Below are positions 8,955 to 54,501 of a DNA stretch of 64,000 nucleotides, piece by piece. Under the pieces are notes generated by a model. The model ran no database searches, was not told the origin of the DNA, and worked only from the letters and a program-made list of their open reading frames with translations. The position numbers and the translations under genes are program-made. The stretch lies in assembly GCF_000312445.1 (NCBI RefSeq), contig NZ_HE997185.1, positions 62,001 through 126,000 on the forward strand, given 5' to 3'. Numbering within the stretch: position 1 is the first letter of the stretch; each line of letters starts with the position of its first letter. Origin of the DNA: Phocaeicola abscessus CCUG 55929. GTDB taxonomy: Bacteria > Bacteroidota > Bacteroidia > Bacteroidales > Bacteroidaceae.

Positions 8955-10187
8955 ATGGAAACGAAGCGAGAACTCATTCTTATTAGCATCAGCGGTGTCG
9001 ATCGTCCGGGCCTGACGGCCTCGATTACTCAAATTCTATCCGAATACGATGTAACGATCCTCGATATCGGGCAGGCCGATATCCATAGCCAGCTGTCTTT
9101 GGGTATCCTTTTCATGAGTCGTGAAGAGGATTCCGGAAACATTATGAAAGAGCTGTTATTCAAGGCTACGGCATTAGGAATTGCGATCCGTTTCTCGCCC
9201 GTGGCTGAAAGCGAATACATGCATTGGGTGAACATGCAAGGGAAGAACCGTTACATCTTGACGCTGCTGGGACGCAAACTCTCCGCTCATCACATTGCAG
9301 CCGTAACGAAGATCCTCGCCGACCAGGGATTGAATATTGATTCTATCAAACGACTGACCGGCCGCATGCCGCTCGACGAGCAGAAGGCGAGCGTCCGCGC
9401 CTGCATTGAATTCTCCGTTCGAGGGAATCCGCAGCACATGGAAGAAATGCAAAGCCGACTCATGCACCTGAGTTCGGAGATGGGAGTCGACTTTTCTTTT
9501 CAGTTGGACAACATGTATCGCCGAATGCGTCGGTTGATTTGCTTCGACATGGATTCTACCCTCATTCAAACGGAATGTATCGATGAGTTGGCAGAACGTG
9601 CCGGCGTGGGCGAACAGGTCCGGGCGATCACCGAAAGGGCCATGCGCGGAGAGATCGATTTCAAAGAAAGTTTTGCCCGAAGAGTCGCTTTATTGAAAGG
9701 ACTCGAGGAGAGTGCTATGCGCGATATTGCAGAACATTTGCCCATCACCGAAGGTGTCGACCGGCTCATGTTCGTGCTGAAGCACTACGGGTATAAAATT
9801 GCGATCCTTTCAGGAGGATTCACTTATTTCGGCCATTATTTGAAACAGAAATACGGCATCGATTACATGTACGCGAACGAACTGGAGATCGCTGACGGAA
9901 AATTGACCGGCCGTTATGTGGGCGAGATCGTGGACGGAAAACGCAAGGCGGAACTCTTGCGCCTGATTGCGCAAGTCGAACACGTAGACATTGCGCAAAC
10001 CATCGCCGTGGGAGACGGAGCGAACGACTTGCCGATGCTTTCGACGGCTGGTCTGGGCATCGCCTTCCATGCCAAACCGAAAGTGGTGGCCAATACCAGG
10101 CAATCCATCAACACGATCGGCTTGGACGGCGTGCTCTACTTCTTAGGCTTTAAAGATTCCTATCTCGAAGAGAAGGGTAAATTATAA
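8955..10187 (+). CDS. serB: Phosphoserine phosphatase SerB with two N-terminal ACT domains
   Basis: SerB removes phosphate from phosphoserine, the last step of serine synthesis. The 410-residue protein has an ACT-type region first (LILISISGVDRPGLTASITQILSEY; second ACT-like part about residues 93-180), which in relatives senses serine. The HAD phosphatase follows: motif I CFDMDSTLIQTECIDELA (nucleophile Asp near residue 199), motif II ILSGGFTYFG, motif IV VGDGANDLPML. All catalytic residues are present. The DEAD-box gene follows 35 bases later on the same strand. A near-consensus box (TAATTTCG) lies just upstream. Confidence 0.95.
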   Translation: METKRELILISISGVDRPGLTASITQILSEYDVTILDIGQADIHSQLSLGILFMSREEDSGNIMKELLFKATALGIAIRFSPVAESEYMHWVNMQGKNRYILTLLGRKLSAHHIAAVTKILADQGLNIDSIKRLTGRMPLDEQKASVRACIEFSVRGNPQHMEEMQSRLMHLSSEMGVDFSFQLDNMYRRMRRLICFDMDSTLIQTECIDELAERAGVGEQVRAITERAMRGEIDFKESFARRVALLKGLEESAMRDIAEHLPITEGVDRLMFVLKHYGYKIAILSGGFTYFGHYLKQKYGIDYMYANELEIADGKLTGRYVGEIVDGKRKAELLRLIAQVEHVDIAQTIAVGDGANDLPMLSTAGLGIAFHAKPKVVANTRQSINTIGLDGVLYFLGFKDSYLEEKGKL

Positions 10188-10222
10188 CTATTGCATCATA
10201 TCAAAACTATTAAGCGCACTTC

Positions 10223-11437
10223 ATGAAATTTTCAGAATTCAATTTCGATCCTACCGTCCTTCAGGCGTTAGACGCTATGAATTTTAGTGAATGTACCCCT
10301 ATTCAGGAGAAGACCATCCCGGTGTTGTTAAACGGTCGCGACGTTATCGGCGTAGCGCAAACCGGAACGGGGAAAACAGCTGCGTATTTGCTGCCCGTCA
10401 TCAATCAGCTCTGCGGGGGGACGTATCCGAAGGATGCGGTCAACTGCATCATCATGTCGCCCACAAGAGAACTGGCGCAGCAAATCGATCAGCAGATGGA
10501 AGGTTTTTCGTACTTTATGCCCGTCTCGAGCGTGGCCGTGTACGGGGGGAACGACGGGACGCGTTTCGAACAGGAGAAACGCGGATTGACGCTGGGGGCC
10601 GATGTGGTTATCGCCACGCCGGGACGACTGATCAGCCATATCGGCTTGGGGTATGTCGATTTCTCCCAAGTCTCTTTCTTCATTCTCGACGAAGCCGACC
10701 GTATGCTCGACATGGGATTTTACGACGATATCATGCAGATCGTAAAGCTCCTCCCCAAGAAGAGGCAAACCCTCCTGTTCTCCGCCACCATGCCCGATAA
10801 GATTCAGCAATTGGCCGAAAATATACTGGATCATCCAGTCGAAATCAAATTGGCCGTGTCAAAACCGGCCGAAAAAATCATTCAGACAGCCTATATCTGT
10901 TACCAGACTCAGAAGTTCCGGATTATCCGCACCCTGTTCTCTGACGCGACGCAAAGCCGCATCATTATTTTCGCTTCTTCGAAGTTAAAAGTCAAAGAGA
11001 TTGCCAAAACCCTGAAAAACATGCGTCTGAATGTGGGCGAGATGCATTCCGACTTGGAACAGTGGCAACGCAACGAAATGATGACGGAGTTCAAAGCCGG
11101 CCACATCAACATCTTGGTGGCTACCGACATCGTAGCGCGAGGAATCGACATCGACGATGTCCGGCTGATCATCAATTACGACGTGCCTCACGATTGCGAG
11201 GATTACGTGCATCGAATAGGGCGTACGGCGCGCGCTAACAACGACGGATGCGCCATCACGTTGGTCAGCGAAGAAGAACAGTTCAAGTTCAAGCAGATAG
11301 AAAACTTCTTGGGAAAAGAGATATATAAACTCCCTGTTCCGGAAGAGTTGGGCGAAGCGCCTGCCTATGAACCGGAAAAGAACTCCGGCAAACGGAGAAG
11401 CTCCCATAAGAAACGACCGGCCAAACGGAATCGTTGA
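10223..11437 (+). CDS. DEAD-box ATP-dependent RNA helicase
   Basis: A 404-residue DEAD-box helicase that unwinds RNA duplexes with ATP. In order it shows the Q motif (ECTPIQEKTIPVLL), Walker A AQTGTGKTAAYLLP, SPTRELAQQ, TPGRL, DEADRMLDMGF, SATMP, VATDIVARGIDI and HRIGRTAR, followed by a short basic tail rich in Lys/Arg (SGKRRSSHKKRPAKRNR) that probably binds RNA. The short tail resembles the RhlE-type group more than DeaD/CsdA. It follows serB by 35 bases. Its stop is only 12 bases before the 41-bp repeat array, so the array is likely transcribed as its 3' untranslated region unless termination occurs inside it. Confidence 0.93.
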   Translation: MKFSEFNFDPTVLQALDAMNFSECTPIQEKTIPVLLNGRDVIGVAQTGTGKTAAYLLPVINQLCGGTYPKDAVNCIIMSPTRELAQQIDQQMEGFSYFMPVSSVAVYGGNDGTRFEQEKRGLTLGADVVIATPGRLISHIGLGYVDFSQVSFFILDEADRMLDMGFYDDIMQIVKLLPKKRQTLLFSATMPDKIQQLAENILDHPVEIKLAVSKPAEKIIQTAYICYQTQKFRIIRTLFSDATQSRIIIFASSKLKVKEIAKTLKNMRLNVGEMHSDLEQWQRNEMMTEFKAGHINILVATDIVARGIDIDDVRLIINYDVPHDCEDYVHRIGRTARANNDGCAITLVSEEEQFKFKQIENFLGKEIYKLPVPEELGEAPAYEPEKNSGKRRSSHKKRPAKRNR

Positions 11438-11449
11438 GGCGATAAAAGT

Positions 11450-11818
11450 TAAAATCCGTTTTAGGTGCTGCTGATCCGCTCGGCGGGAGCTAAAATCCAT
11501 TTTAGGTGCTGCTGATCCGCTCAGCGGGAGTTAAAATCCATTTTAGGCGTTGCTGATCCGCTCGGCGGGAGTTAAAATCCATTTTAGGCGTTGCTGATCC
11601 GCTCAGCGGGAGCTAAAATCCATTTTAGGCGTTGCTGATCCGCTCAGCGGGAGCTAAAATCCATTTTAGGCGTTGCTGATCCGCTCGGCGGGAGCTAAAA
11701 TCCATTTTAGGCGTTGCTGATCCGCTCAGCGGGAGCTAAAATCTATTTTAAGCGTTGCTGATCCGCTCGGCGGGAGCTAAAATCCATTTTAAGCGTTGCT
11801 GATCCGCTCGGCGGGAGT
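11450..11818 (+). repeat. Tandem array: nine copies of a 41-bp repeat
   Basis: Nine head-to-tail units with an exact 41-bp period start at 11450, 11491, 11532, 11573, 11614, 11655, 11696, 11737 and 11778. Each opens with TAAAATCCATTTTA, a perfect 6-bp inverted repeat about CC (unit 1 has G for A, unit 8 has T for C), then G/A-GCG-TTGCT, then GATCCGCTC-A/G-GCGGGAG. The last part is also self-complementary (CCGCT-C-AGCGG). Units differ at only a few sites, which suggests recent amplification or homogenisation. The array fills the whole gap between two convergent genes. There are no spacers, so it is not CRISPR. Function is unknown. Confidence 0.95.
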
Positions 11819-11820
11819 TA

Positions 11821-12615
11821 TTACCGGACCAACACATAATCGATATGCCCCTCTTTATCAATCATCAGATTGACGAGGTAGCACGACGCTTCGTCCGGAA
11901 TGCAAAAGCTGGCTTGAAAACGGTAGCCTTTCGCGTCCACCCCTCCGAAGTCCATATCCGAGAGCACGGCATATTGGTAAAAATCGGGCGGAATCAAGTC
12001 TTCAAACATCTGCTTGCGGATGTCCTGAGCGAAAAGACTGGTCTTCCCCTCATACACGCAAATGTGTATGATATTGTCGTAGTAAACGTTGTCGACGGCT
12101 ATCCCCTCGTCCGAGAGACCCGGCTTGGTGATTCTCATGCGTGAGGGATTGATATAGACATACCCGTGATAGCGATGATTGTTATAATACACTACAGAAT
12201 CTTTCTTCACGACTTCTTCGTAAACCGGTACATCGGTTTTATGAATAAATGCGTTCACGTCTGCATGTTCATCCGCTTTATGCAAACGGATATGTTCGTC
12301 GAAAATGGAATGGAACCAAAAGAGGTGCTGCGTCAGTTTCTCGATCCTGTAACCGTTGGTCACCGCCCCGTAGGTGATCAGGCTGTCGGCATATATTTTA
12401 AAACGCACGGGAGCGATCGCTTCATCCGTATAGAAAATCGTATCGCCCACTATGTTCATGAGCGGCTCATCAGTGCCGTCTTCCTGCCAGATGCCTTGCA
12501 GCATGGCTTTCGCCTCCTCGTTTTCCTCCATCGAAGCACCGTCCTTCGACGCTTGCCTGCACGAGGCGAAAGCGATAAAAAAAGTTATAACGACGATATA
12601 GCTTATGACTCTCAT
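11821..12615 (-). CDS. Lipoprotein, probably DUF4738 family
   Basis: The 264-residue product has a lipoprotein signal (YIVVITFFIAFASC, Cys at about residue 19). The mature protein begins with a charged linker, then LQGIWQEDGTDEPLMNIVGDTIFYTDEAIAPVRFKIYADSLITYG, a layout I associate with DUF4738, a Bacteroidales lipoprotein family of unknown function. The middle (DSVVYYNNHRYHGYVYINPSRMRI) and end (YLVNLMIDKEGHIDYVLVR) look like beta structure. It is probably anchored in the inner or outer membrane facing the periplasm. Its stop codon abuts the repeat array. The family name is from memory of the pattern. Confidence 0.6.
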   Translation of the reverse strand: MRVISYIVVITFFIAFASCRQASKDGASMEENEEAKAMLQGIWQEDGTDEPLMNIVGDTIFYTDEAIAPVRFKIYADSLITYGAVTNGYRIEKLTQHLFWFHSIFDEHIRLHKADEHADVNAFIHKTDVPVYEEVVKKDSVVYYNNHRYHGYVYINPSRMRITKPGLSDEGIAVDNVYYDNIIHICVYEGKTSLFAQDIRKQMFEDLIPPDFYQYAVLSDMDFGGVDAKGYRFQASFCIPDEASCYLVNLMIDKEGHIDYVLVR

Positions 12616-12661
12616 TTCAACAATCTTCTTGCAAATTTTCGCTCGCTTTCTTTGCGTTCGA

Positions 12662-12669
12662 CAAAATTA
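12662..12669 (-). promoter_or_regulatory. -7 box for the 11821-12615 lipoprotein gene
   Basis: TAATTTTG on the minus strand, 46 bases before the ATG at 12615. Confidence 0.4.
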
Positions 12670-12732
12670 CAATAAATTTGAGAGGGAATCTTATTTTGAC
12701 GAAAAAACTTCGATAAAACAGAATAATATGCT

Positions 12733-12740
12733 TACTTTTG
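12733..12740 (+). promoter_or_regulatory. -7 box almost touching the HU/SPOR start codon
   Basis: TACTTTTG ends only 4 bases before the ATG at 12745. If used, transcription would begin at or next to the start codon and the message would be leaderless. Confidence 0.4.
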
Positions 12741-12744
12741 CATC

Positions 12745-13827
12745 ATGGATGAATTGGCAAGACATATAGAAATGCTGCTGTTGGAGAACGATTGCGTCAT
12801 CGTCCCCGAATTAGGCGGATTCATCGCTCACTACGAATCGGCGCATTACGATGCTGCGGAGCATATCTATTATCCTCCCAAACGCACCATCGGCTTCAAT
12901 TCGAAACTGATCATCAACGATGGGCTGCTGGTTCAATGCTATATGCAGACTTATCACACCGACTTTCCCGACGCTACGCGAAAGATAAAACAGGAGGCGG
13001 AAGCGATGAAAGATCGGTTGCATCGGGAGGGAAGCGTAGCGATTCCCCGCGTGGGTAAGTTGTGCTGCAATATTCACGACGTGTACGAGTTTCATCCGAG
13101 CGAAGAAGAGCTTGCAACTCCTTCGCTATATCAACTCGATTCGCTTTATATCCGCGAGCTGGACGAAGCTCCCCCGATATCGGCGAAAACGATTCCTTTC
13201 GTCCGGAAGCAGATCGAAACGCGCCAAGAGCGGAAAGCTGTTCCCGTCCGGTGGATCGGCAAAGCGGTTGCGGTAGCTGCGGCGATCGTTCTTTTCTTCT
13301 TCCTCTCCACCCCTGTCGAGAATACCTATACAGACGACGGGAACTACGCTTCGTTGGAGACGGCCGAATTGGTCAGCGCAATCAAAACCCAGTCGTTAGC
13401 CATGAATGTGATCGCTCCCAAAGGAGCCGAAAAACAACCATCCGTACCGCGCAAGCCGGCAAGCGCCGCAACCGAGAAAGCCCCTGAACAGGGACGGATC
13501 GATGTCAACGGACCGAACGAGCTGTCGGAACCGGCGGTAACCAACTCTGTCCAGGAACCCGTACCGGAAGGGCCGACAGCTGCGACGATGGAAAATACCC
13601 CCCGATACCATATCGTCATTGCGAGCTTGGAAACGATGGCCGGGGCGCAGGCCTACATCGAGGCTCATCAGCAAAAAGAAGAATACAGCCTCAGCATCCG
13701 CGAAGGAAACGGACATTTCCGTATCGTCTTATGCAGTTTCGACGAAGAACCGGCGGCCTATAAAAAGTTGAACGAATTTAAACGGCAAGATGTACACCCG
13801 AATGCATGGGTGCTTGCTTCCAAATGA
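12745..13827 (+). CDS. HU-CCDC81 domain and SPOR domain membrane protein
   Basis: A 360-residue protein with three recognisable parts. Residues 1-125 match the bacterial HU-like CCDC81 pair (HIEMLLLENDCVIVPELGGFIAHYESA, then GSVAIPRVGKLCCNIHDVYEFHP). One membrane helix follows near residues 173-187 (AVAVAAAIVLFFFLS). After a Pro/Ala-rich linker comes a C-terminal SPOR domain (YHIVIASLETMAGAQAYIEAHQ to HPNAWVLASK), a fold that binds denuded peptidoglycan. So the HU part is cytoplasmic and the SPOR part periplasmic, as expected for an envelope or division-associated protein. It is followed 9 bases later by the FHA gene and then by cob genes. Confidence 0.85.
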   Translation: MDELARHIEMLLLENDCVIVPELGGFIAHYESAHYDAAEHIYYPPKRTIGFNSKLIINDGLLVQCYMQTYHTDFPDATRKIKQEAEAMKDRLHREGSVAIPRVGKLCCNIHDVYEFHPSEEELATPSLYQLDSLYIRELDEAPPISAKTIPFVRKQIETRQERKAVPVRWIGKAVAVAAAIVLFFFLSTPVENTYTDDGNYASLETAELVSAIKTQSLAMNVIAPKGAEKQPSVPRKPASAATEKAPEQGRIDVNGPNELSEPAVTNSVQEPVPEGPTAATMENTPRYHIVIASLETMAGAQAYIEAHQQKEEYSLSIREGNGHFRIVLCSFDEEPAAYKKLNEFKRQDVHPNAWVLASK

Positions 13828-54214: not shown

Positions 54215-54501
54215 CGGACGGGTATGAAAAAGGATTTTCAGTGCCGCCGTTCCGATCAGCAGCATCTGAAACGGAGTTTTACTCCCGCTGACAGGGGCAG
54301 CAGCGTTTAAAACGGATTTTCATGCACGACGATCCAATCAGCAAGACCTAAAATGGATTTTTACCCAAAACTACTCGATCAGCAACGCTTAAAACGGATT
54401 TTTATGCATGCCGATTCTGTCGGCGGTACCTAAAATGGAGTTTAGCCTCCGCTGATCGGATCGACAGCGTCGAAACCGGATTCTTACCGTCGGCTACCGC
54501 C
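54215..54501 (-). repeat. Diverged tandem array of the 41-bp repeat, seven units
   Basis: Unit boundaries fall exactly 41 bp apart at 54215, 54256, 54297, 54338, 54379, 54420 and 54461. Read on the minus strand the units carry AAAATCCGTTTTAAGCGTTG with CTGA, or variants such as TAAACTCCATTTTAGG, the same first half as the array at 11450. The second half (TCCGATCAGCGGAGG in one unit) has mostly decayed. The array lies in the gap between the esterase stop (54594) and uvrA. It is in the same orientation relative to the gene before it as the first array. Confidence 0.85.

Follow-up and report, generated by a model that had tools for sequence, protein, structure and literature searches.

The window analysed here, a 64,000-nucleotide stretch of the Phocaeicola abscessus CCUG 55929 genome, contains a nine-copy tandem array that has a DEAD-box helicase gene on one side and, converging from the other, a DUF4738 gene whose start resembles a lipobox by eye (Table 1). 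A first, sequence-only reading had described nine units in perfect 41-bp register, and both TRF (score 638, 95% matches) and unit alignment confirm this, since every unit is exactly 41 bp long and free of indels; mean pairwise identity between units is 93.5%. The array was also said to fill the space between the helicase and a lipoprotein gene, and it does so almost completely, leaving 12 bp on the helicase side and 2 bp on the DUF4738 side of a 383-bp gap (11438-11820), with the two neighbours identified by their DEAD and Helicase_C domains and by DUF4738, respectively. The two palindromes ascribed to each unit are less uniform than proposed. The AT-rich inverted repeat, dyad X (TAAAATCCATTTTA), has perfect 6-bp arms around a CC centre in seven of the nine units, the exceptions being unit 1, which has CCG, and unit 8, which has CTA; CCGCT-C-AGCGG, dyad Y, is perfect in four of nine, and the remaining five read CTCGGCGG. 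One gene past the array, at 12745-13827, a gene encodes prokaryotic HU domains of the CCDC81-like kind and matches SPOR weakly.

Table 1. Features of the array locus and of a second array in the window
Feature	Coordinates	Strand	Basis
Whole feature, 9 x 41-bp array	11450..11818	+	TRF, unit alignment
Unit 1, X-box TAAAATCCGTTTTA	11450..11490	+	
Unit 2	11491..11531	+	
Unit 3	11532..11572	+	
Unit 4	11573..11613	+	
Unit 5	11614..11654	+	
Unit 6	11655..11695	+	
Unit 7	11696..11736	+	
Unit 8, X-box TAAAATCTATTTTA	11737..11777	+	
Unit 9	11778..11818	+	
Dyad X example, AT-rich, unit columns 1-14, centre 7.5	11491..11504	no strand	
Dyad Y example, GCTGATCCGCTCAGC, unit columns 21-35, centre 28	11511..11525	no strand	
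DEAD-box helicase gene, upstream of array	10223..11437	+	Pfam DEAD, Helicase_C
DUF4738 gene, convergent, lipobox-like start (by eye)	11821..12615	-	Pfam DUF4738
Second array of the 41-bp family, strongly diverged, beside uvrA gene	54226..54485 (about)	-	

The array is one member of a family dispersed over the genome. A 68-base query against the window's own assembly (G000; 2.54 Mb in 14 contigs, 85% complete) gave 92 matches at E <=10, the last three of them with E above 0.5, and a position-weight scan of the matched places located 115 units at 18 places, namely 16 arrays and two lone degenerate units. The search of the whole genome and of related genomes that the sequence-only reading had proposed thus found the unit at 17 further places in G000, and the exact two-box pattern in none of 59 other genomes. 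One of the 17 lies within the window itself, beside a gene identified as uvrA by its UvrA domains; this array has diverged to 66% matches and retains the 41-bp steps. Arrays comprise 3 to 13 units, all 97 of 97 within-array steps are exactly 41 bp, and all units of any one array head the same way, none being inverted. When only two AT-rich boxes were required and spacings from 37 to 45 bp were allowed, 93 places matched in G000, 92 of them at 41 bp and one at 40 bp, with no match for the same pattern read backward as a control. The lone 40-bp spacing sits in array L194 of a sister subfamily (C1:110415, C1:605839 and C4:216322), in which the AT-rich box and the 41-bp step are kept and the partner sequence is different. 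TRF reports 1% indels for L194, and 3% for array L054 against a 40-base consensus, where the unit scan gives 41-bp steps only.

Interior units are 0.909 identical within arrays versus 0.806 between them, which bears out homogenisation from the earlier proposal of recent expansion or active homogenisation; a purely local slippage repeat, also suggested, is not supported, since the unit is dispersed. None of the 32 ends of the 400-bp flanks of the G000 arrays resembles the flank of another locus, and units, not larger elements, thus seem to be copied. From this array-only copying and the internal homogenisation we infer gene conversion as the copying route between arrays. Taken as a whole, this is a real dispersed repeat class, unusually regular, and known from one genome. 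The same assembly holds further tandem families with periods of 22, 42 and 64 bp; those with periods of 42 and 64 include L185:17496-17957, L186:18404-18636, L190:11851-12075 and L191:8129-8354, the 42-bp units of L186 and L190 being similar by eye as reverse complements. A CRISPR-like array, with repeat CTTTTAATCGTACTTAGTAGAATTGAAAT and a period of 64-66 bp (L197:544-1218), was excluded from the gap-type counts given below.

Alignment of the 101 well-scoring units shows how the two dyads are arranged. Among 82 possible dyad centres, the best two are columns 7.5 and 28, with paired fractions of 0.63 and 0.55, respectively, against a mean over the centres of 0.26 (sd 0.11). A distance of 20.5 bp, half the unit length, separates these centres, and a dyad therefore comes round once in about two turns of the helix. 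The near-invariant columns are 1-6 (TAAAAT), 10-14 (TTTTA), 24-25 (GA) and 31-32 (TC). In dyad Y the stem pairs that vary show no covariation (0.561 paired versus 0.565 in shuffles), and a palindrome test on single TRF consensuses, which is a weak test, gave mostly p values between 0.03 and 0.9 for the 41-bp arrays. The helical phasing suggested at the outset stands as a pattern, given a dyad per 20.5 bp, the invariable 41-bp steps and a 21-22 bp rhythm that is common in the intergenic arrays of relatives, and the phased protein binding attached to it stays putative. Variation within the interior units of the 41-bp arrays is strongly biased towards transitions: of 122 distinct minor alleles, 101 are transitions and 21 transversions, or 84 versus 8 when the degenerate array L051 is left aside; the corresponding ratio in eleven 22-bp arrays of relatives is 45 to 36.

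Beyond G000, the exact two-box pattern was found in no other member of a set of 60 genomes, being absent from all 59 relatives, 35 of which are other genomes of the same genus. When the spacing was loosened, a search over 393 genomes of the order brought up 11: G000 with 79 matches, G140 with five, and nine genomes with one each in AT-rich sequence. G140, which belongs to another family of the order, carries a 42-bp two-dyad array of other sequence at a single locus (L100:5947-6171), between Iso_dh and Citrate_synt genes. The two-unit pattern had no match in genome contig and viral contig collections, nor the window array in plasmid or phage records, though these collections may omit the window's own genome. 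The named records with the nearest helicases belong to Bacteroides, Phocaeicola, Mediterranea and unclassified Bacteroidaceae, and no published account of such arrays in Bacteroides was found in the open-licence literature. Hence the unit did not prove to be a known mobile-element end or a described repeat family, the outcome that would have told against the sequence-only reading, in the contig, viral, plasmid, phage, Rfam and literature searches.

Most places of the family lie between convergent genes, at their 3' ends. Eleven of the 18 places are in convergent gaps, four in divergent and three in co-directional ones, as against 52 convergent gaps among 337 in 464 kb of background (p=1.3e-5); gap types come from one simple gene caller, which differs from longest-ORF calls at L042, L050 and L052. 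Several arrays in G000 start or stop a few bases from stop codons, or overlap them. Outside G000, arrays with periods of 20-66 bp are convergent in 12 of 34 cases versus 131 of 608 gaps (p=0.046). Since convergent gaps are free of promoters, tolerance by itself would be enough to enrich arrays in them. The helicase end as such was considered as a site of family-wide array conservation and rejected, as 3 of 41 named relatives have an array there, compared with 18 of 309 other 3' ends, with no excess. At L046 a strong hairpin, noted by eye, lies to the left of the array, which is thus not the sole candidate terminator at that locus.

We then focus on G025, the nearest relative by helicase (82% identity) among 59 genus members searched, which carries a different 22-bp dyad family with consensus AACTCATGCGCATGAGTT and a 4-base spacer. 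A period of exactly 22 bp occurs in 21 of 53 intergenic tandem arrays from 20 same-genus stretches and 80 named loci, three of the 21 coming from G025, and 19 of 23 arrays inside genes in the same sample have periods that are multiples of three; the control from outside Bacteroidales is a 50-kb piece of E. coli sequence that holds a single array. At the 40 G025 loci scored, out of 166 first-look candidates, 22-bp steps account for 181 of 183, the remaining two being 44 bp. The gaps holding these arrays (n=38) are convergent in 9 cases, divergent in 13 and co-directional in 16, and are thus not clearly biased to convergent gaps. Array direction agrees with gene direction in 9 of the 16 co-directional gaps and is hence unrelated to it, on which ground we rejected G-T pairing of the unequal unit halves, which arises on one strand, as an RNA stem. 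Flank ends are common to different loci in 27 of 76 cases, with a median aligned length of 118; flanks being common among G025 but not G000 arrays, the two families have spread not quite alike. Many arrays of the G025 family (L242-L281) start with AAGTGATACG or a close variant of it and finish with its complement, and some have a flank of about 118 bp in common, in the manner of mobile-element ends. A further array in a G025 convergent gap (L286:2515-2880) shows by eye the palindrome GTTTCAC-N4-GTGAAAC at a spacing of about 22 bp.

These unrelated arrays lie partly at the same gene ends in the two species. In the one relative compared, a G025 array is present at 11 of 19 orthologous 3' ends beside G000 arrays versus 2 of 26 controls (p=0.0004), and at 13 of 25 when all gene ends are taken, versus the same 2 of 26 (p=0.0006). 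Because the ends of a gap do not vary independently, we also count whole loci, which gives 9 of 15 versus 2 of 15 (p=0.010). The window locus and L053 were known beforehand, the former having supplied the 22-bp query and the latter coming from an earlier comparison; with both therefore dropped, the 3' ends give 7 of 15 versus 2 of 26 (p=0.0065). Gap length confounds part of the co-location: once G025 gaps shorter than 200 bp are set aside, the count becomes 11 of 14 versus 2 of 8 (p=0.022), and the G025 gap minus its array has a median of 314 on the array side versus 91 on the control side, a difference that is not significant (p=0.12). In these counts an array required at least two units scoring at least 15 within 600 bp, and of 27 array-free convergent junctions eligible as controls the first 18 were used. 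G025 orthologs were identified for 25 of the 32 gene ends beside arrays and for 26 of the 36 control ends; we left out L042 and L047, which hold lone units, L046 has no ortholog, and five ends (four on the array side, one control) reached the edge of the examined stretch. Individual loci illustrate the pattern. The window locus, L043 and L053 have junctions that are intact in G025 with arrays there too, and beside the G025 uvrA ortholog a 22-bp array lies on the side where G000 has its diverged array. At L055 the flanking genes, one of them metH-like, are on different contigs in G025, with arrays at both 3' ends. Judged from these gene neighbourhoods, placement seems partly kept while the unit sequence is replaced, and it is unexpected that the unrelated family of one relative should occupy part of the same places.

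What the arrays might do has to be weighed among several readings, one of which is that they act through RNA, as a bidirectional transcription terminator or a stabiliser of mRNA 3' ends formed by hairpins. The window array does abut the stop codons of both genes, and by eye a long hairpin lies 3' of the helicase in several relatives. However, no GC stem with a direct T run occurs in 11450-11818, the two sites found both lying within the helicase gene, and the fold z-scores of the window array are -1.4 on the + strand and 0.0 on the - strand. Rfam gave nothing at gathering score over 9500-13500, its two sub-threshold matches, with E up to 5, both lying outside the array. A hairpin-plus-T scan, counting a hit at either end, was too loose to set array gaps (10 of 11 positive) apart from array-free gaps (22 of 29) or shuffled gaps (13 of 29). 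Further points against an RNA role are the stem pairs of dyad Y, which do not covary, the separate hairpin seen by eye beside the array at L046 and the four of 18 family places in divergent gaps. RNA hairpins as the function were thus set aside on folds and missing covariation, and the repeated hairpins that had been suggested for the helicase 3' region are not upheld by these z-scores, the lack of a canonical terminator or the stem pairs; we regard a role in termination or stabilisation as improbable. Mobility offers another account, in which the units would belong to a REP/BIME element that a Y1 (RAYT) transposase moves, or to a MITE. The family is palindromic, dispersed, extragenic and near 3' ends, as REPs are in the cited description (PMC3733652). 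Y1 transposase (PF01797) had no match in the 85%-complete G000, whereas 5 of 14 control genomes were positive; a constant GTAG or CGTC tag is absent, the units are all direct with none inverted, and no flank is common among loci (0 of 32 ends), which together make this account very unlikely. The least likely reading has the arrays as recombination sites that mark rearrangement breakpoints: it would suit L055, where the neighbours have come to lie on different G025 contigs and arrays still stand at both 3' ends, but at the window locus, L043 and L053 the array junctions are intact.

Two readings remain in the foreground. The fixed step, the dyads two turns apart, the missing RNA signals and the lack of any tie to gene direction in G025 all point to the DNA level, and we tentatively favour, at somewhat less than even confidence, the array as a copy set of a lineage-specific dispersed non-coding family that may serve as a BIME-like boundary through putative protein binding. 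In such a mechanism a dimeric DNA-binding or nucleoid protein, or gyrase, would sit on successive dyads along one helix face, and the occupied array would form a boundary that keeps transcription or torsion of both flanking units apart, as suggested for REP/BIME. Unequal exchange or slippage would multiply units inside an array and gene conversion would carry them from one array to another, and this copying would replace the family in concert with its places partly kept. Selfish or neutral spread is nearly as likely: the arrays may be a satellite that spreads by recombination and slippage and persists where it is harmless, in promoter-free convergent gaps, the places common to two species being the same tolerant gaps in both. 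Array length ranging from 3 to 13 units, absence of the exact pattern from 59 other genomes (35 of the same genus) and a convergent bias explicable without function are consistent with it. Much the same observations weaken a boundary role, as the promoter-free convergent gaps need only tolerance for their enrichment, gap length confounds the co-location (11/14 vs 2/8 from 200 bp upwards), the G025 arrays are not clearly convergent (9/38) and have common flank ends (27/76), and the helicase 3' end is not array-rich (3/41 vs 18/309); the dyad arms moreover lack covariation, and the single-consensus palindrome test is weak. On the other hand, neutral spread does not readily account for 97 of 97 steps at 41 bp despite 122 distinct interior minor alleles, for an X-box spacing retained in a sister subfamily with another partner sequence, or for a 21-22 bp rhythm repeated in unrelated families.

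An extension of the boundary role, which we consider rather unlikely on present comparisons, would be a system general to Bacteroidaceae, in which the places and the two-turn dyad rhythm are kept and the sequence at all sites is replaced from one species to the next, along with a DNA-binding protein whose specificity changes, amounting to satellite-like DNA with a job. If true, bacteria would have their own counterpart to concertedly evolving satellite DNA, in which places are fixed, phasing is helical and sequence changes fast, and both the co-evolution of repeated DNA with its binding proteins and the insulation of convergent genes in a dominant gut phylum would become testable. Even if the arrays are neutral, they represent a repeat class invisible to between-species searches by sequence similarity, which would miss it since the units of the two species compared are unrelated.

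Among known systems, the closest are REP and BIME elements, a mark of which is binding by gyrase, IHF or DNA polymerase I. In the cited passages, REPs are short palindromic, dispersed, extragenic repeats near 3' ends with a GTAG or CGTC tag, CGTC REPs also being said to occur without a dedicated RAYT (PMC3733652); REP/BIME elements occur in high copy number, frequently close to 3' ends where genes converge, with proposed roles as protein or topoisomerase sites at the ends of transcription units (PMC3733652, PMC1525189), and BIMEs consist of units in alternating orientation (PMC2817692). Like those of E. coli and Pseudomonas, the 41-bp family is short, palindromic, dispersed, extragenic, multi-copy and found in convergent gaps; its two-dyad intergenic unit is at the upper edge of the 20-40 bp palindromic, extragenic REP/BIME size, and its placement (11/18 vs 52/337) agrees with theirs near 3' ends. 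Unlike REPs it shows neither GTAG nor CGTC as an invariant motif across the 101 G000 units tabulated by column, unlike BIMEs its units are direct, head-to-tail and at a fixed step, and unlike both it has two different dyads per unit and is found in one genome only. The defined ends that a MITE or other mobile element carries along are not seen (0/32 flank ends alike), and in the window array, unlike a CRISPR array, the whole unit repeats with no unique spacers. Porphyromonas gingivalis, of the same order, has direct repeats of 22 bp and 41 bp, similar in unit length and a candidate parallel, our literature search for them having returned no paper. As in bacterial tandem repeats or VNTRs, the units are head-to-tail and homogenised and their copy number varies between loci; unlike in VNTRs, one family occupies 18 places, its dyads are about two turns apart, and its places are partly common with those of an unrelated family. 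Eukaryotic satellite DNA under concerted evolution has a species-specific unit homogenised within and between arrays, and the 41-bp unit is likewise species-specific and homogenised, differing in that its arrays are short, of 3-13 units, and stand at bacterial gene ends.
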